A stretch of DNA of 63,350 bases from Pseudomonadota bacterium (lineage in GTDB: Bacteria > Pseudomonadota > Alphaproteobacteria > Rhizobiales > JAKPQE01), in NCBI GenBank assembly GCA_029572955.1, contig JAKPQE010000087.1:1-63350 (forward strand). The letters are read 5' to 3'. Position numbers and translations under genes: made by a program. Within the stretch, counting starts at the first letter, position 1. The number at the start of each line of letters is the position of its first letter. Under the pieces are notes generated by a model, which was given only the letters and a program-made list of their open reading frames with translations, did no database searches and was not told where the DNA came from. This document shows positions 2,004 through 27,217 of the stretch, piece by piece.

Positions 2004-2405
2004 ATGACGGAGTATTTCCATAGCGGCAGACGGAGGTTCGCGTTTTCGGCGGCCCTCTTCGGCCTGCTCATGCAAATCCTCCTGCCGCTCGGACAGGCGA
2101 TCGAAGTCAACGGCGCCAACGAGGTCGGTCCCGACCGTCTGGTGATCTGCACCCTCTACGGGGTCAAGATCGTCGACCTGTTGAGCGGCAAGGAAGTTCC
2201 CGATCGCGAGATCGATCCGGAAAAGTGCCCCGTCTGCTTCGCCTACGGCATTGCCGCGACGTCGATCGGCGTCAGCTCCGACATCTCGATCGAGGCTCCC
2301 CGGCTGGCGCGCGTCGAGCGCCTGCCGCTGCCGACGACGGTCGACATTCCGGCCTCGCGCTTCTTCAACGACTGCGCGGCCCGCGCACCTCCCTCCCTCG
2401 TCTGA
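2004..2405 (+). CDS. DUF2946 family protein, membrane-anchored, probably metal-related
   Basis: 133 residues starting MTEYFHSGRRRFAFSAALFG. A basic N-terminus is followed by a hydrophobic segment (about residues 12-32), then an extracytoplasmic part with Cys50 (VICT), a CPVC motif (DPEKCPVCFAYG) and a C-terminal RAPP close to the RGPP ending of DUF2946 proteins. DUF2946 genes are commonly found beside TonB-dependent receptors, often ones linked to copper, and the next gene here is such a receptor 397 bases downstream. An in-frame ATG at 1962 would add 14 residues without a convincing signal sequence, so the 2004 start is preferred. Family assignment rests on motif and context; function is unknown. 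Confidence 0.7.
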   Translation: MTEYFHSGRRRFAFSAALFGLLMQILLPLGQAIEVNGANEVGPDRLVICTLYGVKIVDLLSGKEVPDREIDPEKCPVCFAYGIAATSIGVSSDISIEAPRLARVERLPLPTTVDIPASRFFNDCAARAPPSLV

Positions 2406-2802
2406 AAACCGGTTCGTCCTCGCTTCGCTGCACCCCGCGCCGTTCCGCGCCGGGGCCGGTCGGAGACCGTCATCGGTCGTGACTGGCGGCAGTCGAAGCG
2501 GCTGCAGCAGCCTTGAGAAAAACAGGCTGCGGCCGCGCTGGGACCATGCCGGATCGCTTTGCGCAGGTCGTCGTCCGGCCCGGTGTCTCACCAGGTCCCG
2601 GCCGACCCGCCGGAGCGGCAACCACTCGAACCGGAAATCGCACCGACCGCCCAGGTCTCGGCTCCCTGCGGGGATGCCGGCCGGGCCCGGAGAGAGCCGT
2701 CGCGTTCGCGCGCGGGGCGGTGCGGTTTGACCTTCGCGGCAGAAACGAGCGCCGGAAAACGAGCGTGCAGGCTGCCGAAACAGACGAGATTGGGCTGGTA
2801 AG
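2406..2802 (+). other. Intergenic leader of the TonB receptor operon, 397 bases
   Basis: No convincing gene lies here. One good hairpin is present (stem 2507-2513 with 2524-2530, A-rich 10-base loop) but it has no T-tract. I looked for a cobalamin, molybdenum or other riboswitch because the next gene is an outer-membrane receptor, and found none of the conserved boxes. The length is unusual for an intra-operon gap, so the receptor may have its own promoter here; I could not pick one out with confidence. Confidence 0.5.
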
Positions 2803-4860
2803 ATGACAGGGATCAAGACAGGAAAATTCGGCGAGCTGCTGTTCGCGACCTTCACATGCGTCGGCGTCGGTACGGGCGTCGTCGCGCCCGCGCTGGCGGA
2901 AAGCGCGATACCGGAGAGCGTCTGGCTCGACACGATTATCGTCACCGGCGCGCGCTCCGACGAATACCTGAAGAAGACGCCGAACGCCGTCACCGTCGTG
3001 GCGCCGGAAGACGTCGCCAAGGTGAAATTCACCGACGCCCGCAAGGAACTGCTGACGCGCATTCCCGGCAACAGCCTCGGCCGCAATCTGCGCTTCCCCT
3101 TCAACGGCAGCAACTACACCGTCAATCTGCGCGACGGCCTGCAGATGCGGCCCTTCGGGCGCGGCTACACCTCGGCCCTCGAAGAGGTCAACCGCTGGGA
3201 CATCGAGCGCATCGAGATCATCAAGGGGCCGGCTTCCGCGCTCTATGGCAGCAACGCCATCGGCGGCGTCATCAACATCATCACCAAGGCACCGCCGCTC
3301 GATCCGGAATACGGGGTGTGGTCGGAAGGCGGCTCGTCGGGGCATGTGCGCTCGGGCTTTTCCGCCGGCGCGACCTACGGCGCCTTCGGCTATACGCTGA
3401 ACGGCAACCTCATCACCTCGGGCGGGTCGCGCGATCGCACTGCCAAGCGCGAACGGGCGGTGTCCGCCAAGGGCGTCTGGGACGTCTCGGCCGATACCAA
3501 GCTGACCCTTCGCGGCGAGTACCAGAAGATCTGGGACCAGCAGCCGGGCACGCTGAGCGCCGCCGAATACGCGGCCGACTGGCAGCAGGCCGTCATTCAC
3601 GATGCCTTCGAGGACAACAGCTTCAGCACGGTCTCGGGCAGCCTCGAGCACGATTTCAGCGATATGGCCAGCGGCAAGGTCGCCTATTCCGGTCGCAAGA
3701 CGACGGCGGAAGGCCCGACCGCACTGTCGTACAAGAGCGGCTATGTCGACGAGGAGGCGCTCGATCACAATCTCGTCGTCGAGTACAAGCACCATCTCGA
3801 CTTCCTCTCGACCAAGATCGTCGGCGGCGCGGACCTGCAATACAGCGACTACCGCGAGAAGAGCTACGGCTGGGTCAACGACGTCAGCGTCCAGAGGGGG
3901 GCTCTGCAAAGCGACTGGGACCTGCTCGCCGAAACGGCCTCACCGTTCGCCCAGGTGCAGTTCTCGCCGGTCGAACGGGTGGAGTTCACCTTCGGCGGCC
4001 GCTTCGACAAGATCCGCTATACCGGCGTCGACAAGCTCGGCACCTCGGGCAAGCTGAAGTCGGACTATCAGAACTTCAGCAAGAAGGCCGGCGTCAGCAT
4101 CGATCTCACCGACCGCAACGTCCTGTGGCTCGGCTATGGCGAAGCGTTCGTCGTGCCCAGTCGCTCGCGCCTGTTCACCAGCAAGGCGACGATCAGCCGG
4201 GGCCGCATGAGCGGCTACAACGCCGACCCCAACCTCAATCCCGAAACGGCGAAGAACTACTCGGCCGGTCTGCGCGGCAGCCTGTTCGACGACCGGTTCG
4301 GCTATGACGTGGCGGTCTACTACACCAACATCTACGACATGGTCGTCGGCGTCGACCGGGACGGCACCCTGGCCGGGCGCGTCTATACCAATGCCGGCGA
4401 GGTCCGGGGCAGCGGCCTCGAGTCGATGTTCTACTTCAAGCCGCACGACATGGTCCGGCTCGATGCGTCCTACACCTACGCGGAGAACAAGTTCACCGAC
4501 TTCGTCGACGAGGGGGTGGACTACACCGGCAAATATGTCGCCGCCTCGCCGCTGCACCACCTGAACGCCCGCCTGACGGTGATGCCGATCCCCGAGCTCG
4601 AGGTCGAACTCGAGTGGGACCACATCTCGAGCTTCTACACCAGCGACCTGAACGACGATCCGTTCGGCAAATACCGGCGTCCCGATCTGTGGCACCTCAG
4701 GGTCGACTATCAGGTCGGTACCTGGTCGGTGTGGGGCCAGATCCGCAATCTGACCGACACCAAATACGCCGACAGCGTCTCCTACAGCACCCGCAGCGGC
4801 CGCAGCTACACGCCGGGCGACGGGCGGTTCTTCGCCGCCGGCGCCAGGGTCACCTTCTAG
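2803..4860 (+). CDS. TonB-dependent outer-membrane receptor
   Basis: 685 residues, typical receptor length. A signal peptide ends near residue 32 (APALA-ES), followed by a TonB-box-like segment (DTIIVTGA, residues 43-50), a plug domain (about 57-165) with the conserved end IKGPASALYGSNAIGG (139-154), and a beta-barrel to the C-terminus, which ends in Phe. The organisation is that of the FepA/CirA siderophore and heme class, but the substrate cannot be read from the sequence. No siderophore synthesis, TonB or ExbBD genes are nearby. The downstream neighbours (periplasmic DUF4198-like protein, NapH-type protein, DCCP-like protein and activase) suggest import of a metal, metal complex or organic substrate for that system. 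Confidence 0.92.
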   Translation: MTGIKTGKFGELLFATFTCVGVGTGVVAPALAESAIPESVWLDTIIVTGARSDEYLKKTPNAVTVVAPEDVAKVKFTDARKELLTRIPGNSLGRNLRFPFNGSNYTVNLRDGLQMRPFGRGYTSALEEVNRWDIERIEIIKGPASALYGSNAIGGVINIITKAPPLDPEYGVWSEGGSSGHVRSGFSAGATYGAFGYTLNGNLITSGGSRDRTAKRERAVSAKGVWDVSADTKLTLRGEYQKIWDQQPGTLSAAEYAADWQQAVIHDAFEDNSFSTVSGSLEHDFSDMASGKVAYSGRKTTAEGPTALSYKSGYVDEEALDHNLVVEYKHHLDFLSTKIVGGADLQYSDYREKSYGWVNDVSVQRGALQSDWDLLAETASPFAQVQFSPVERVEFTFGGRFDKIRYTGVDKLGTSGKLKSDYQNFSKKAGVSIDLTDRNVLWLGYGEAFVVPSRSRLFTSKATISRGRMSGYNADPNLNPETAKNYSAGLRGSLFDDRFGYDVAVYYTNIYDMVVGVDRDGTLAGRVYTNAGEVRGSGLESMFYFKPHDMVRLDASYTYAENKFTDFVDEGVDYTGKYVAASPLHHLNARLTVMPIPELEVELEWDHISSFYTSDLNDDPFGKYRRPDLWHLRVDYQVGTWSVWGQIRNLTDTKYADSVSYSTRSGRSYTPGDGRFFAAGARVTF

Positions 4861-4880
4861 CGCGACCGGAGGAGGCAGGT

Positions 4881-5999
4881 ATGCCGCGGTTTTCTTCAGG
4901 ACGTCTGCCCGTGCTGGGCATCGGCCTCGCCCTGCTGCTGCAGGCGACGACGGTCGAGGCGGTCGCCGAAACCAGGACGATGTGGCTCGGTCTGGTGGAC
5001 CGGGACGGACAACGACCATCACAGGAGAGAACCGCGGCAGACCGCACTGCAGGCGGCGGCCCGGGCGAACGGGCACCCGCCGGCCAGGGAGCCGGCATGC
5101 GAATGCCGTCCGGCGACCGGGGTGCGGACATGCGAATGCCGTCCGGCGACCGGGCGGCGCGCGGCGGCTCGGGCGGGGAGGGCGGCGGCGCGCGCTCCCA
5201 TGGCGAACGCATGCAGAAGGCGCTGATCTACGAAGGCGTGTTCCCGCAGGCGAATGCCCGGCCGGCCGGTGCCGGTCCGCTCGATGCCCGGTTCTGGCTC
5301 GAGCGGCCCGACCACCGTCTCGTTCCGCTCACCGTGCGGCAGGAAGGACCGCGCCGCCGGGTCGAGTTTCCGACCGGGACGGGGGGCGACTATCGCCTCA
5401 TCGGCTATGACGGCGACCGGGTCGCCGGCGGCAGCCGGCTGCATCTCTATGCCTATTACGGCTTCATGATGCACGGCGAGGTGCCCGGCAAGGTGCAGCG
5501 GGACACCGCCTATCGCCCCGGCTTCCTCGGCGGGACACCGCGGCTGGAGATCGTCCGGTTCTTCGACAATGACGGCGACCGCTATCGCTCGCGGGTCGGC
5601 CACACGGCCCGCGTGCAGGTGCTGTTCGAGGGCAAGCCCCTCGCCAATGCGCCGATCAGCCTGACGACGTCGCAGGACTGGCAACGGCGCCTGCAGACCG
5701 ATGCCGACGGCAAGGCCGAGTTCACGCTGATCAAGGAAGAGTTCCGGGACGGCCCGATCGACAAGAACCGGACGGCGCTGTTCCTGCTGCAGACCGAGCA
5801 TGTCGAGGACAGCCCGGGCAATTACTTCGGGAATCCCTACGAGCGGGAGCGCTTCGTCGCGACGCTCGCCTTCCAGGTCTTTCCCGACAGCAACGAGTGG
5901 GAAAGCAAGCGGGTGGCCTACCTGATCTTCGTCTTCACGACCCTCGTCGGCGGAGCGGCCATCGTCACCCAGCGCCTGCGCCGGAGGACAAGGGCATGA
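4881..5999 (+). CDS. Periplasmic membrane-anchored protein with DUF4198-like domain
   Basis: 372 residues. A signal peptide (about 1-29, VEAVAE) is followed by a low-complexity Gly/Arg/Met region (about 45-108) containing an 11-residue tandem repeat (MRMPSGDR twice). Then comes a beta-rich region (about 115-340), with features of the DUF4198/NikM-like periplasmic domains (FEGKPLANAPISL, QTDADGKAEFTL), and one C-terminal transmembrane helix (about 346-363) with a basic cytoplasmic tail. The ATG at 4881 has a GGAGGAGG ribosome-binding site; the frame stays open upstream inside the receptor gene, but that part is a shadow. Gap of 20 bases after the receptor; a 4-base ATGA overlap with the next gene. 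DUF4198 relatives accompany nickel and other metal uptake systems, so a metal- or ligand-relay role is inferred, not shown. Confidence 0.7.
   Translation: MPRFSSGRLPVLGIGLALLLQATTVEAVAETRTMWLGLVDRDGQRPSQERTAADRTAGGGPGERAPAGQGAGMRMPSGDRGADMRMPSGDRAARGGSGGEGGGARSHGERMQKALIYEGVFPQANARPAGAGPLDARFWLERPDHRLVPLTVRQEGPRRRVEFPTGTGGDYRLIGYDGDRVAGGSRLHLYAYYGFMMHGEVPGKVQRDTAYRPGFLGGTPRLEIVRFFDNDGDRYRSRVGHTARVQVLFEGKPLANAPISLTTSQDWQRRLQTDADGKAEFTLIKEEFRDGPIDKNRTALFLLQTEHVEDSPGNYFGNPYERERFVATLAFQVFPDSNEWESKRVAYLIFVFTTLVGGAAIVTQRLRRRTRA
5096..5154 (+). repeat. 26-base perfect direct repeat, 33-base period, in coding sequence
   Basis: The 26-base sequence at 5096-5121 is repeated exactly at 5129-5154. The 33-base period is in frame and adds 11 residues, giving two MRMPSGDR motifs in the linker of the DUF4198-like protein. 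Such repeats can expand or contract by slippage without breaking the frame. Confidence 0.9.
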
Positions 6000-6934
6000 A
6001 CGTGCAGCGTCTGCGTCTTCTGGTTCAGGCGATCTCCTTCGTCCTTCTCATCTATGGCGGTGCAGTGGCGATCGACTTCGGCAGCAAGCTGCCGACGTTC
6101 TCCTGCGCGTTCGTCGAGGATGTCGGCGGCGGCTGTTTCCTCATCGCCCTGCAGCATCAGCTCGCCCGCCCGCTTCCGGCGCTGCTCGGCACCATGGGCG
6201 TCACCCTGCTCGTCCTCATCGGCACGGCGGCGCTGCTCGCCGTCGTCCTCAACAAGGCCTGGTGCGGCTGGATCTGTCCGGTCGGATTCCTGCAGGACCT
6301 GATCACCAAGCTGCGCAACCTCATCGGCATCGACCTGTCGCGGCTGCCGTGGAGTTCGGTGAAGCGCTACCGGTCGGTGAAGTACGTGCTGCTGGCGCTG
6401 CTCATCCTTCTCCCGCTGGCGATCGGCAATCTCGGACTGTCGCGCGACTGGACGGCGCCGTTCTGCCAGATGTGCCCGGCGCGGCCCCTGCTGCCCCTGC
6501 TCAAGGGCGATACCAGCGAGTTCCACGTCGATTTCTCGAGCATCCCGACGCTGGTGCTGACGACGCTGGCGATCGTCCTGGCGGGGCTGTTCGTTCCGGT
6601 CTCCTTCGTCAAGCGGCGCTTCTTCTGCTCCTACTGCCCGATGCTCGCCTTCCTGTCGCTGTTCGACAAGGTCGGCCTGCTCTCGCTCAGGAAGGACGGC
6701 CAGCGGTGCACCCGCTGCGGCAGCTGCTATCGGGCCTGCCCGATGGAAATCCGCGAGATCGAGGAAGAGAAGGTCAAGACCAATCTGGTCACGCAGGACT
6801 GCATCCTGTGCCTGCGATGCGTCGAATCCTGTCCGGAAAACAAGGCCCTCACGGCAACGTTCCTGGGCATCGAGGTGTTCCGAGCGAGCGAGGCCGGTTT
6901 CCTCGAGCGGCAGTCGAAGAAGACAGAGCAGTGA
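5996..6934 (+). CDS. NapH/CcoG-type membrane polyferredoxin (4Fe-4S)
   Basis: 312 residues. Hydrophobic helices lie near residues 10-27, 63-85, 128-148 and 184-203, with CxxxCP and CxxCP motifs at membrane edges: C90-xxx-C94P, C157-xx-C160P and C211-xx-C214P. The C-terminus carries two complete ferredoxin motifs (C238, C241, C244, C248P and C269, C272, C275, C279P), presumably cytoplasmic. C37 and C47 near the N-terminus form an additional pair. NapH-type proteins move electrons between the quinone pool and iron-sulfur or periplasmic partners. Here the gene overlaps its upstream neighbour (ATGA, 5996-5999) and lies 8 bases before the DCCP-like gene, so the likely job is to feed electrons to the activase/DCCP pair. 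No NapG or NapF is present, so this is not a nitrate reductase operon. Confidence 0.85.
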   Translation: MNVQRLRLLVQAISFVLLIYGGAVAIDFGSKLPTFSCAFVEDVGGGCFLIALQHQLARPLPALLGTMGVTLLVLIGTAALLAVVLNKAWCGWICPVGFLQDLITKLRNLIGIDLSRLPWSSVKRYRSVKYVLLALLILLPLAIGNLGLSRDWTAPFCQMCPARPLLPLLKGDTSEFHVDFSSIPTLVLTTLAIVLAGLFVPVSFVKRRFFCSYCPMLAFLSLFDKVGLLSLRKDGQRCTRCGSCYRACPMEIREIEEEKVKTNLVTQDCILCLRCVESCPENKALTATFLGIEVFRASEAGFLERQSKKTEQ

Positions 6935-6942
6935 GGTGGGCG

Positions 6943-8334
6943 ATGGATCTGCGCAAGATGATGACGATCGGCGCCGGACGGGCGCGAGGCAAGGGTGAGG
7001 CTTCGGCCGCCGCGCAGACCGGCGGCGGGCCGCAGGCGGATGGCGCCGCCTCGCCGCCGAAACCGAGCAAGAGCGAACGGCTGGCCAACAAGGTCCGCAT
7101 CAATCTCGACATGACCGTGCGCGAGATCTTCGACGGGATCGAGGAGGACCGGACCCGGCCCGACGGCATGGCCTATTTCGACCGGATATTCAAAGCCTTC
7201 ATCCATGGCGGCAAGGATGTCGTCCGGCTCGAGGCCGGGCGCAAGATGGTCGGCACGTACTGCGTTTTCGTGCCCGAAGAGCTGATCTATGCCAGCGGTG
7301 CCCGTCCGGTGCGGCTTTGCGCGGGGTCCTACGAGAGCGTCGAGATCGGCGAGGACCATCTGCCCGATGTCGCCTGTCCGATGGTCAAGTCGGAGATGGG
7401 GTTCTCGACGCTTCCGATCCTCGACTTCTATCAGCGCTGCGATCTGGTGGCGCTGCCGACGAGCTGCGACTGGAAAACCAAGATCGGCGAGATCCTCGCC
7501 GAGCACCACGACGTCCACATGCTCGGTCTGCCGCGGATCAAGGAGCTCGAGGCGTCACGGGACTTCTGGCTCGAGGAGGTCCTGCGCTTCAAGCAGTCGC
7601 TCGAGCGGCTGACCGGCAAGCGGATCGATCGCAAGCGGTTGCAGGATGCGATCCGGCGGGTGCAGCGCGCCCAGCGCGAAGTGCATCGCTTCCACGAGAT
7701 CCGCAAGCACACCCCGGCGGTCATTCACGGGCGCGACGCGCTGGAAATCCTCAACGCCTATTTCTACGACGAGGTCGAACCCTGGACCGCCGCGCTCGCC
7801 AGCCTCAACGAGGAACTCGAGCAGCGCATCGCCAACGGCGTCCACGTCGCCAAGCCGACCGCGGCCCGGCTCATGCTCACCGGCTCGCCGGTGGTGTTTC
7901 CGAACTGGAAGATACCGACGATCCTCGAGGAACTCGGCGCGGTCCTCGTCGCCGACGAGTTCTGCACGTCCGGGCGCTATCTCAGCGACATGGTTTCCCT
8001 CGACGAGGGCACGCTGCCGGACATGCTGGAGGCTATTGCCGATCGCTACATGCTGCCGTGCTCGTGTCCGACGTTCTCGAACACGACGGAGCGGCGCGAC
8101 CGGGTCCTGCAACTGGTCGAGGACTATCGGGTCGAGGGCGTGATCTACCACGTCTTCAAGGGCTGCCACCCCTTCGACATCGAGATGAAGACGATCGAGA
8201 CGGCGCTGCAGAAAAAGGGCGTGCCGATGCTCAAGGTGGAAACGGACTACGCGCCGCAGGATATCGAGCAGCTTCGCACCCGGATCGAGGCATTCATCGA
8301 AACACTGAAGGGCAGAGCGGGGGTGAGCGCATGA
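6943..8334 (+). CDS. Double-cubane cluster protein-like (2-hydroxyacyl-CoA dehydratase / benzoyl-CoA reductase family)
   Basis: 463 residues. A polar low-complexity N-terminus (about 1-50) precedes the two-domain HgdB/BcrC-type fold. Candidate cluster ligands are Cys145 (ACPMVKS), Cys175 (TSCDWKTK), Cys341 (EFCTSGR), Cys373/Cys375 (CSCP) and Cys408 (KGCHPFD); Cys107, Cys126 and Cys166 are also present. CoA dehydratases and benzoyl-CoA reductases use two different family subunits. Here one polypeptide stands alone with an activase and with no CoA ligase, CoA transferase or second subunit nearby, the arrangement of the double-cubane [8Fe-9S] cluster proteins, which reduce small molecules such as acetylene in vitro. 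The start has a GGTGGG ribosome-binding site; the stop overlaps the activase start (ATGA). The DCCP assignment is an inference from gene content; substrate unknown. Confidence 0.78.
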   Translation: MDLRKMMTIGAGRARGKGEASAAAQTGGGPQADGAASPPKPSKSERLANKVRINLDMTVREIFDGIEEDRTRPDGMAYFDRIFKAFIHGGKDVVRLEAGRKMVGTYCVFVPEELIYASGARPVRLCAGSYESVEIGEDHLPDVACPMVKSEMGFSTLPILDFYQRCDLVALPTSCDWKTKIGEILAEHHDVHMLGLPRIKELEASRDFWLEEVLRFKQSLERLTGKRIDRKRLQDAIRRVQRAQREVHRFHEIRKHTPAVIHGRDALEILNAYFYDEVEPWTAALASLNEELEQRIANGVHVAKPTAARLMLTGSPVVFPNWKIPTILEELGAVLVADEFCTSGRYLSDMVSLDEGTLPDMLEAIADRYMLPCSCPTFSNTTERRDRVLQLVEDYRVEGVIYHVFKGCHPFDIEMKTIETALQKKGVPMLKVETDYAPQDIEQLRTRIEAFIETLKGRAGVSA

Positions 8335-9197
8335 CTTTCTTCGCAGGCATCGACGTCGGTTCCGCCACGACCAAGGTGGCGATCACGGACGGGTCGGAGG
8401 TTCTCGGCTACAGGGTGGTGCCGACCGGCGTGCACTGTAACGACAGCGCCTGGCGGCTGTTCGACGACTTCCGCCGGGAACTCGGGCTCGAGGCCGACAG
8501 CGTCAAGTTCGTCACCTCCACCGGCTACGGCCGGCGGCTCGTCAAATTCGCCGACAGCAACATTTCCGAGATCACCGCCAACGTGAAGGGCGCCACCTGG
8601 TATGGCGGCCGGGCCGGGCTGACGATACGCACCATCGTCAATATCGGCGGGCAGGATACCAAGGTCATCGGCCTCGACGAGCAGGGGGTCGCCAAGAACT
8701 TCTCCATGAACGACAAGTGCGCGGCGGGAACCGGGCGCTTCCTCGAGGCGCTGGCGCGCATCCTCGAGGTCGAGGTGGTCGATCTCGGCGACATGGCCCT
8801 CGAGGCGGACGTGCCGCTGCGGATCAACTCGACCTGCACGGTCTTTGCCGAGAGCGAGATCATTTCGCTGCTGGCGCGGGAAAAGAAGCCGAGCGAGATC
8901 ATCGCCGGCGCCCATTTCGCCATCGCCAAGCGGCTGGCCAAGATGGCGCGGCGGGTGAAGGTCGTCGACCAGGTCTTCTTCGATGGCGGTCCGGCGCTGA
9001 ACAAGGGCTTGATCCAGGCGCTCGAAGACGAGCTGGCGACCGACCTCTTCGTGCCCGAGAACATGCCGCAGGTCACGACGGCGATCGGCGCGGCGATGAT
9101 CGCCCATGACGAATACAGGAGCGGCGTTCCGACCGCGGAACTGCCCAAGACCGAGCGGATGCAGGGGGGCGACGAGTGTCGGGTCTGCCCGCAATAG
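8331..9197 (+). CDS. BadF/BadG/BcrA/BcrD-type ATPase activase (DCCP reductase-like)
   Basis: 288 residues, the length of archerase-type activators. The ASKHA ATP-binding fold begins GIDVGSATTK (residues 6-15), with NIGGQDTK (104-111). Cys130 (NDKCAAGTG) and Cys169 (NSTCTVF) are the two conserved cysteines that hold one [4Fe-4S] cluster between the subunits of a homodimer. The family couples ATP hydrolysis to transfer of a low-potential electron to the partner iron-sulfur protein, here surely the adjacent DCCP-like protein, with which it shares a 4-base overlap. A C-terminal CRVC (Cys283, Cys286) is an extra pair that could be a docking or redox motif. The start at 8331 is fixed by the ATGA overlap. 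Confidence 0.9.
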   Translation: MTFFAGIDVGSATTKVAITDGSEVLGYRVVPTGVHCNDSAWRLFDDFRRELGLEADSVKFVTSTGYGRRLVKFADSNISEITANVKGATWYGGRAGLTIRTIVNIGGQDTKVIGLDEQGVAKNFSMNDKCAAGTGRFLEALARILEVEVVDLGDMALEADVPLRINSTCTVFAESEIISLLAREKKPSEIIAGAHFAIAKRLAKMARRVKVVDQVFFDGGPALNKGLIQALEDELATDLFVPENMPQVTTAIGAAMIAHDEYRSGVPTAELPKTERMQGGDECRVCPQ

Positions 9198-9874
9198 GTC
9201 CCTATCTCGCGCCGTTCGAGGGCTTGGGCGGCATCCATTTCGCGGTGCTGGCCATGGGGTTCTTCTACGGCCTCACGATGTGCAGCCTGTCCTGCCTGCC
9301 GCTGGTCGCGCCCTATGTCTTTGCCACCCAGTCCGGGTTCGGCGGCGGCTTCGACGCGACCGCGGTGTTCGTGCTGACGCGGGTCGCCGGCTATACGGTC
9401 CTCGGCGCGGCGGCCGGGTTCGCCGGACAGGTGGTGCTCGATCATGTCGGCCTCGAGGCGCCGATGCTCGTCTCCGGGGCGCTCGTCCTTTTGATCGGCT
9501 TCCTCGTTCTCGTCAGGCGGCGGACCAGCTGCGCGGCACCGCGCGGCGCGGCGCGGCCGCAGCGGTCCTCGTTCAGGCATATGGCGACGCTCGGCCTCGC
9601 GACGAGCCTGATGCCGTGCCCGCCGCTCTATGCCGTCATGCTCTATGGCGCGACGACCCAGTCGGCGATGACGGCGGCAACGCTGGCCTTCCTCTTCGGG
9701 GTCGGGACGCTCGCTTCGCCGATCTACTATCTCGGCGCCGCGGCCGGCTGGGTGTCGGGCCGGATCGGCCAGCGGACCACCTACAGATACGGCAGTCTTC
9801 TCAGGGGCCTTTGCGGCCTCATCATCATCCTCTTCGGGCTGAAGCTGCTGTCGAGCGGCTATGGCGGCCTTTGA
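9176..9874 (+). CDS. CcdA/UreH-like (SafE/DsbD-type) membrane protein with paired cysteines
   Basis: 232 residues with about six hydrophobic helices. The GTG start at 9176 overlaps the activase by 22 bases and is preceded by a GCAGGGGGG ribosome-binding site; the next ATG would cut into the first helix. Cys36 and Cys40 (TMCSLSC) lie in the first helix and Cys148 sits in an MPCPP motif in a later helix, the pattern by which CcdA/DsbD and UreH-like proteins pass reducing equivalents or handle metals across the inner membrane. As the last gene of the operon it could keep cysteines of the periplasmic or membrane partners reduced, or export a product. The exact subfamily is uncertain. Confidence 0.7.
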   Translation: MSGLPAIGPYLAPFEGLGGIHFAVLAMGFFYGLTMCSLSCLPLVAPYVFATQSGFGGGFDATAVFVLTRVAGYTVLGAAAGFAGQVVLDHVGLEAPMLVSGALVLLIGFLVLVRRRTSCAAPRGAARPQRSSFRHMATLGLATSLMPCPPLYAVMLYGATTQSAMTAATLAFLFGVGTLASPIYYLGAAAGWVSGRIGQRTTYRYGSLLRGLCGLIIILFGLKLLSSGYGGL

Positions 9875-27064: not shown

Positions 27065-27093
27065 GAGGCCCGATCGCGACAAGATCGGGCCTC
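27065..27093 (+). terminator. 11-bp perfect hairpin before the TPP riboswitch
   Basis: Stem 27065-27075 pairs exactly with 27083-27093 around a 7-base loop, 30 bases after the NifX-type gene. There is no long T-tract (only GTT follows), so termination is plausible but not certain. It abuts the first base of the riboswitch. Confidence 0.5.
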
Positions 27094-27182
27094 GTTCCGA
27101 GGGGTGCTCTTCGACGAGCTGAGATGGCGCAAGGCCGAACCCTTCGAACCTGATCCGGATCATGCCGGCGAAGGGACGGAAC
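27094..27182 (+). promoter_or_regulatory. TPP riboswitch (THI element)
   Basis: The closing stem P1 pairs 27094-27099 with 27177-27182. The conserved TPP elements appear in order: GGGGTGC, CTGAGA, ACCC, GAACCTGATC, ATGCCGGCGAAGGGA. It binds thiamine pyrophosphate and turns off the genes below. Control is probably translational, since a hairpin masks the ribosome-binding site (27218-27236). Confidence 0.95.
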
Positions 27183-27217
27183 CGGTCGCATTCCCGTGCG
27201 CAGTCCGGATTCCCGCA

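Follow-up and report, generated by a model that had tools for sequence, protein, structure and literature searches.

The best-described relative of the locus considered here is the cruR-crtA-crpH operon of Bordetella pertussis (formerly bp2923-bfrG-bp2921). According to PMC9426467, its first open reading frame (ORF) encodes CruR, a DUF2946 leader peptide in which a CXXC motif is followed after 45 residues by RAPP, and a long gap separates this ORF from a TonB receptor gene. Copper lifts CruR stalling and thereby allows Rho-dependent termination ahead of the receptor gene, making the operon copper-repressed; shifts of one or two residues in the CXXC–RAPP spacing are tolerated, and five additional residues strongly reduced the copper effect (PMC9426467). 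Copper chelates are the described cargo of CrtA, the receptor, and for CrpH the authors put forward, as a speculation, a role as periplasmic copper reductase in support of heme-copper oxidases (PMC13038864). The same plan of a CruR-type ORF, a long gap, a TonB receptor and membrane redox genes opens an operon of seven genes at 2004–9874 (+) of contig JAKPQE010000087.1 (assembly GCA_029572955.1), an alphaproteobacterial stretch of 63,350 nucleotides that is called the window below. Unlike the B. pertussis operon, whose third gene encodes the PepSY_TM protein CrpH, the window locus encodes DUF4198-type, NapH-like and CcdA-like proteins together with a cytoplasmic double-cubane cluster protein (DCCP) and its activase, and Pfam finds no PepSY match in the seven genes. 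An earlier note on this DNA, made from its sequence, knew of no described pathway with this set; that statement needs qualification, since the cruR–TonB receptor–membrane reductase plan is known in B. pertussis, albeit without DCCP (PMC9426467, PMC13038864). With a confidence modestly better than even, we propose that the locus is a copper-starvation operon for copper-chelate import and reductive copper mobilisation, to which DCCP has been added as an ATP-driven reductase.

The gene arrangement is not a product of chance, and the operon is real and conserved. Its genes are spaced by 397, 20, −4, 8, −4 and −22 bases, and their names agree with Pfam and NCBIfam matches, although the scores are weak for DUF2946, DUF4198 and NapH. 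ORF coordinates and family matches thus agree with the seven same-strand genes and the spacing that the earlier note had reported. In the phylum sample, a DCCP of the operon kind occurs in 2 of 299 genomes (the window genome, G000, and G093 with 66% identity), and a third match, G240, is distant (33% identity). The order sample contains four in 397 genomes (the window genome; G310, 81%; G312, 68%; G352, 68%), with a fifth match, G421, of a different kind (28% identity). Scanning named genomes yielded 13 loci, of which nine belong to the operon kind (64–69% DCCP identity) and four have distant DCCPs (33–41%). Because L009, L013 and L015 duplicate G352, G312 and G093, respectively, the distinct carriers number 11, namely the window, G310 and each of L009 to L017. 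Those with 64–69% identity span alphaproteobacteria, Magnetococcales and Thiodiazotropha. The order DUF4198–NapH–DCCP–activase–CcdA is present in all 11 as far as contigs or stretches reach (L012 ends after DCCP, L014 ends after the activase and L017 starts inside DUF4198), and a TonB receptor precedes this core in 9/9 carriers that extend so far, so that the search for the same gene order, suggested in the earlier note, found it conserved. Among plasmids, 28 records, 15 of them listed, hold a DCCP relative, and one, from Sulfurovum mangrovi, also encodes a NapH-like protein. There the set is rearranged into a receptor, a CcdA-like gene, a polyferredoxin–DUF4198 fusion, NapH-like, DCCP and activase genes, an RND pump and a second receptor; the first receptor is annotated as two ORFs for plug and barrel (L072, 1755–3934), perhaps through a frameshift. 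A DCCP–TonB–NapH-type gene set is described in none of the literature matches listed, one of the searches having been swamped by unrelated words.

What is the role of the first gene? The DUF2946 ORF (2004–2405, +), which had been counted among the pathway proteins, instead carries the copper-sensor and arrest motifs of CruR: KCPVC, with CXXC at residues 75–78, is followed by 48 residues and then by RAPPSLV, with RAPP at residues 127–130, and the frame stops three residues after RAPP. The Pfam DUF2946 model matches over its full length at 21.4 bits, below the gathering score of 23.7, and four of five orthologues score above it. The pattern CXXC-(46–48 residues)-RAPP-(3–4 residues)-stop recurs in 6/6 alphaproteobacterial carrier loci that cover this stretch, where 115–397 nucleotides separate the leader ORF from the receptor gene. 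The spacing of 48 residues in the window, and of 46–48 across the six loci, compares with 45 reported for B. pertussis (PMC9426467). In ORFs of at least 50 residues from the window and the collected loci, the motif was found in those six and their duplicate records and nowhere else. The 397-nucleotide gap (2406–2802, +) is typical of leader-ORF architecture and, by comparison with PMC9426467, may be the region of Rho termination; the strongest C>G stretch, of 80 nucleotides, starts in the final part of the cruR frame. The DUF2946 product therefore looks like a CruR-type copper-sensing leader peptide. This motif makes copper-responsive control likely, and because the leader resembles CruR, the operon is probably switched on at copper scarcity, as cruR-crtA-crpH is. 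Riboswitch control was considered and rejected: at gathering scores, Rfam returned a TPP riboswitch (27090–27193, +, 77 bits) and ffh, both elsewhere in the window.

The next two genes encode proteins of the outer membrane and the periplasm. The receptor (2803–4860, +) has plug and beta-barrel domains; its nearest solved relatives are YncD/PqqU, followed by siderophore and heme receptors, all matches being weak, and its scores lean toward siderophore and heme models while lying under their cut-offs. In supplying copper through a TonB receptor, the proposed system would resemble NosA/OprC, where NosA serves the nitrous oxide reductase NosZ (PMC7558416); it differs in that the OprC-type model TIGR01778 is absent from the 25 of 30 window-receptor matches listed. 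The DUF4198-type protein, which is membrane-anchored (4881–5999, +), scores 33.1 bits against a Pfam gathering score of 34. Its AlphaFold model (pLDDT 76), with helices at the N- and C-terminal ends, was compared with the PDB and matched Zcp (Z 19.5, rmsd 3.0, 200 residues aligned) and the nickel-bound NikK-type entry 9gcb (Z 16.5, rmsd 3.0, 183 aligned). The matched Zcp structures include zinc, cobalt and copper forms, and below the Zcp and NikK rows follow immunoglobulin-like and macroglobulin-type domains with Z of 6 or less. The predicted structure thus shows that the protein has the metal-binding fold of Zcp/NikK, and TonB-driven import of a metal complex, as anticipated in the earlier note, is supported as probable. 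A Met/His-rich N-terminus was dropped as evidence for copper, given that the Met/His fraction ranges from 0.02 to 0.18 across ten DCCP-operon DUF4198 proteins and is 0.065 in the window.

The membrane module consists of a NapH-like polyferredoxin protein with Fer4_5 and Fer4 domains (5996–6934, +) and a CcdA/DsbD_2-like protein (9176–9874, +; PF13386, 69 bits). The NapH-like protein scores well under the cut-offs of NapH proper (TIGR02163, 78.6 vs 213; NF007013, 77.9 vs 234). Hydropathy and charge, on which its topology depends because the structure model is too poor (pLDDT 47.6), predict four helices with C37, C47, H54 and C157xxC160 on the periplasmic side and two ferredoxin-type motifs in the cytoplasm. 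These five residues are identical in 39/39 NapH-like sequences, with and without DCCP, the last motif being absent in one row; in the CcdA-like protein, C36, C40 and C148 are kept in 19/19 aligned sequences. CcoG/FixG is likewise a membrane polyferredoxin, and CcoG reduces Cu(II) on behalf of a copper enzyme (PMC7558416). The NapH-like protein differs from CcoG/FixG in having its own predicted periplasmic Cys/His set. At an E-value of 1e-25, NapH-like relatives occur in 31 of the 299 phylum-sample genomes, and the 29 besides the two carriers gave 28 loci of 2.3–4 kb. None of these 28 loci contains DCCP or activase, and a CcdA-like gene adjoins the NapH-like gene in 23 of them. In 16 wider DCCP-less loci, a receptor was recognised in 12 by similarity to the window receptor and in three more through fragments, and no CruR motif was found; TonB/ExbBD-like ORFs, named by eye, lie beside many DCCP-less loci. 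These receptor–DUF4198–NapH-like–CcdA-like operons share the membrane and periplasmic set and the NapH-like cysteines with the window operon and differ from it in the missing DCCP, activase and CruR motif. The membrane module is thus not dedicated to DCCP. Because the same NapH-like set occurs without them, DCCP and the activase appear to have been inserted into a receptor-linked redox module that is also found on its own.

Judged by its sequence, the DCCP (6943–8334, +) is genuine and distinct. It scores 380.3 bits with NF040772 (equivalog cut-off 350), its best PDB match is the DCCP of 7yyl/6eno (5e-83), and C107, C145, C175, C341, C375 and C408 are present in the window and in all 12 operon rows; their roles as cluster ligands are deduced from the cysteines common to two double-cubane proteins, DCCP and BzdN. 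Nine of ten other operon DCCPs tested, a set that leaves out L012, also pass NF040772, and the Sulfurovum protein falls below at 321.9. Like the DCCP and reductase of 6eno and 7yyl, which we take to come from Carboxydothermus hydrogenoformans, the window pair comprises a single-subunit HgdB-like protein with six cluster cysteines and a dedicated activase with two conserved cysteines. Unlike that DCCP, the operon proteins form a separate clade, carry C166 in 11 of 12 rows, have lost the C160-equivalent of ordinary DCCPs and are embedded in an envelope metal operon. In a tree of 24 rows, the 12 operon DCCPs group together (100/99) to the exclusion of the PDB DCCP and E. coli YjiM. BzdN, HadC and MbdN lie outside this clade on long branches, and L008 and other DCCPs lie between (93/89, a fork that is not starred); some branches are long enough that finer placement is unsure. 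The tree lends no support to a two-subunit CoA dehydratase, and the DCCP-like protein is not nested among two-subunit enzymes, the placement that the earlier note had named as a check. In the home assembly of 3.76 Mb, the operon DCCP is the sole HGD-D match found.

The activase (8331–9197, +) is an ASKHA-type ATPase that matches TIGR00241 at 245 bits (cut-off 125). Both conserved cysteines, C130 and C169, presumably the bridging [4Fe-4S] ligands, are kept in 14/14 aligned sequences. An extra C-terminal CxxC is found in 6/10 aligned Pseudomonadota operon activases (window, G310, L009, L010, L013 and L014) and is absent from the other activases in the alignment; in the window and L009, the activase gene shares its last 22 bases with the start of the CcdA-like gene. 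Both an envelope-spanning gene set around DCCP and an ATP-driven reductase, as the earlier note had them, are supported. The enzyme family reduces acetylene, hydrazine and azide, not N2, its physiological role is called unclear and its biological function is stated to be unknown in a 2025 paper (PMC11971306). For the related BzdNO, the same source gives a first electron above −450 mV and two further electrons only below −600 mV.

Which copper enzyme would such an operon serve? Co-occurrence was assessed in genome samples and without phylogenetic correction. A NosZ model matches strongly in 10 of the 11 carriers, with best scores of 272–388 bits, which is the band of the Sec-dependent (clade II) enzymes; two of these carriers have the match split into two pieces. 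In the eleventh carrier, an assembly of 1.5 Mb, the match is no more than trivial. A clade II NosZ model scores 837–897 in 6/6 carriers tested (cut-off 625). In the order sample, NosZ occurs in 46 of 199 genomes and falls in the clade II band in 14, including all four carriers (Fisher p 1.6e-5, uncorrected for kinship and with the other 195 genomes taken as non-carriers from the DCCP search). Clade II NosZ exceeds the cut-off in 7 of 299 phylum-sample genomes, both carriers among them. By comparison, 31 other genomes (the 29 with DCCP-less NapH plus G240 and G421) include eight with NosZ, seven of which belong to the other clade. A Magnetococcales family of five genomes, one with DCCP and three with clade II NosZ including that one, is too small to be informative. 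In G310, nosZ lies approximately 14 kb from cruR and approximately 19 kb from the DCCP gene. ORFs around NosZ resemble nos genes by eye; the nos-type locus L089 holds a NapH/MauN-family protein above its cut-off and a NapG-like protein below, and the window NapH-like protein is 21% identical, over the aligned part, to a NapH/MauN-family protein of a nos cluster. Nitrogen fixation was rejected as the common link, nifH being above its cut-off in only 2 of the 11 carriers.

We infer the copper response, the imported substrate, the direction of electron flow and the DCCP substrate as follows. At low copper, the ribosome would stall at the RAPP end of the CruR leader peptide, Rho could then not terminate transcription in the 397-nucleotide gap, and the six downstream genes would be made; copper bound at CXXC would lift the stall and shut the genes off. 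The TonB receptor would bring a copper complex into the periplasm, where the Zcp/NikK-fold protein would bind it. Electrons or thiol equivalents delivered to the periplasmic side by the NapH-like and CcdA-like proteins would release the copper or keep it as Cu(I). DCCP and its activase, an addition inserted between the NapH-like and CcdA-like genes, would use ATP to provide strongly reducing cytoplasmic electrons, passed outward via the NapH-like protein to a metal complex or copper enzyme; alternatively, DCCP may act within the cytoplasm, on a small molecule or a chelator. The enzyme chiefly served would probably be clade II NosZ. Copper-chelate import is plausible, and so, by analogy with CcoG and CrpH, is reductive mobilisation by the NapH-like/CcdA-like pair. 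The candidate roles of DCCP are outward delivery of low-potential electrons, cytoplasmic reduction of a chelator or chelate, and a copper-free side path for N2O. PMC7558416 describes the way in which copper is released from imported methanobactin as unknown, and it is a speculation that a strong reductant could serve such release after methanobactin-type import.

Several observations weigh against the proposed copper-starvation operon. No receptor of known substrate is a close relative of the window receptor, and the OprC-type model is absent from its listed matches. Upstream of the operon in Magnetococcales and Thiodiazotropha, and in the Sulfurovum stretch, no CruR was found (L015, L016 and L072), which limits the motif-based case for copper control to the alphaproteobacteria. 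In the window genome, NosZ lies on another contig, and proximity to the operon is seen only in G310, the linkage being unmeasured in most carriers. NosZ can do without the operon, since ten order-sample genomes with clade-II-like NosZ lack it, and the co-occurrence could stem from a shared low-oxygen lifestyle. Finally, the proposal gives no reason why copper handling should call for an ATP-driven reductase in the cytoplasm.

Among the alternatives, the one that survives best, although it is unlikely, is reductive activation, in which low-potential electrons from DCCP would pass through the NapH-like protein to a sluggish copper centre, such as CuZ of NosZ, or to a copper chelate. ATP-driven activases act in this way for other metal cofactors, and the proposal draws on the tight packing of the NapH, DCCP and activase genes (an 8-base gap, then a 4-base overlap), on the invariant periplasmic Cys/His set predicted for the NapH-like protein and on the NosZ link of the carriers. 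However, contact between DCCP and the NapH-like protein is a proposal from gene adjacency, and the 28 NapH-like loci without DCCP suggest that the membrane module works alone. Distinctly doubtful is a system for iron, nickel or another metal, with CruR as a local addition in alphaproteobacteria. The three distant clusters in which CruR was not found, the Zn, Co and Cu forms of Zcp, the nickel-binding NikK-type entry and the siderophore/heme leaning of the receptor all suit such a system, whereas the CruR motifs in all six alphaproteobacterial carriers covering the stretch and the association with NosZ argue for copper.

A third alternative places DCCP beside NosZ as a copper-free backup: DCCP and its activase would reduce N2O when copper-starved NosZ is empty, and the receptor and membrane genes would fetch copper in parallel. 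N2O is isoelectronic with azide, one of the DCCP substrates noted above, CruR-type control would place expression at low copper, and nearly all carriers are NosZ genomes. A replacement for NosZ nevertheless predicts carriers without NosZ, and only the 1.5-Mb assembly among the 11 lacks a strong match; N2O reduction by DCCP would also cost ATP, and the literature consulted, which does not include the original DCCP papers, contains no report of N2O as a tested DCCP substrate. We regard this backup as highly improbable, and a shade more so the specific claim that DCCP is a copper-independent, ATP-driven N2O reductase or detoxifier switched on by the leader peptide when copper starvation disables NosZ. 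Scarcely credible is the route of the earlier note, in which quinol electrons pass through NapH to the activase and DCCP and reduce an imported substrate: it draws on gene adjacency and on the naming of NapH proper as a quinol dehydrogenase subunit (NF007013), but it is left unsupported because the same NapH-like set occurs in 28 loci without DCCP or activase, no NapG-like gene is among the seven, the NapH score is far under its cut-off, and quinone potentials make transfer from quinol to a double-cubane cluster probably uphill, in line with the potentials of BzdNO given above.

One DCCP clade thus has a fixed genetic address, next to genes for a TonB receptor and for a protein with a metal-binding fold, behind a copper-sensing leader in alphaproteobacteria and, in nearly all cases, in genomes with an N2O reductase. 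This address gives the enzyme family a testable setting of copper chelates, NosZ activity and N2O. If the copper-starvation reading is true, the few bacterial systems known to acquire copper would gain a very low-potential, ATP-driven branch, and the operon could matter for N2O emission where copper is limiting.

Five of the ten loci that cover the downstream side (L011, L013, L016, L017 and L072) have efflux-pump genes, some named by eye, that come after the operon or point toward it. In L011, L016 and L017, an HlyD-type adaptor, an ABC ATPase-like ORF and a MacB-type permease come directly after CcdA (domains confirmed for HlyD and MacB in L017, HlyD in L011 and MacB in L016; the rest by eye), and in Sulfurovum the annotated RND pump occupies the downstream position. 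Such pumps possibly export spent ligand. On the upstream side of the window operon, a phage-type integrase gene (475–1644, −), which we take to be P4-type, is divergent and lies 360 bases upstream of cruR in DNA of lower GC (0.61). No tRNA was found within the window. The operon may be located on the margin of a mobile element.

DCCP relatives outside the operon clade have other neighbours. Ordinary DCCP–activase pairs in L020 (8890–10938) and L021 (8893–11033) stand beside SelB, SelD and YedF (NCBIfam), the neighbour of the pair in L004 is a cysteine-desulfurase-like gene (by eye), and yjiM-yjiL of E. coli is followed by a DUF3343 gene; this suggests a second, selenium-linked role for the DCCP family. 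The G421 locus (L008, 2–4092) encodes a single-subunit HgdB-like protein that lacks three of the six cluster cysteines and scores 207 bits against the cut-off of 350. Its gene is flanked by a TonB-receptor-like ORF on one side and an ABC-transporter-like pair on the other (assigned by eye in both cases), which is a further association with a receptor, with no activase in the stretch covered.

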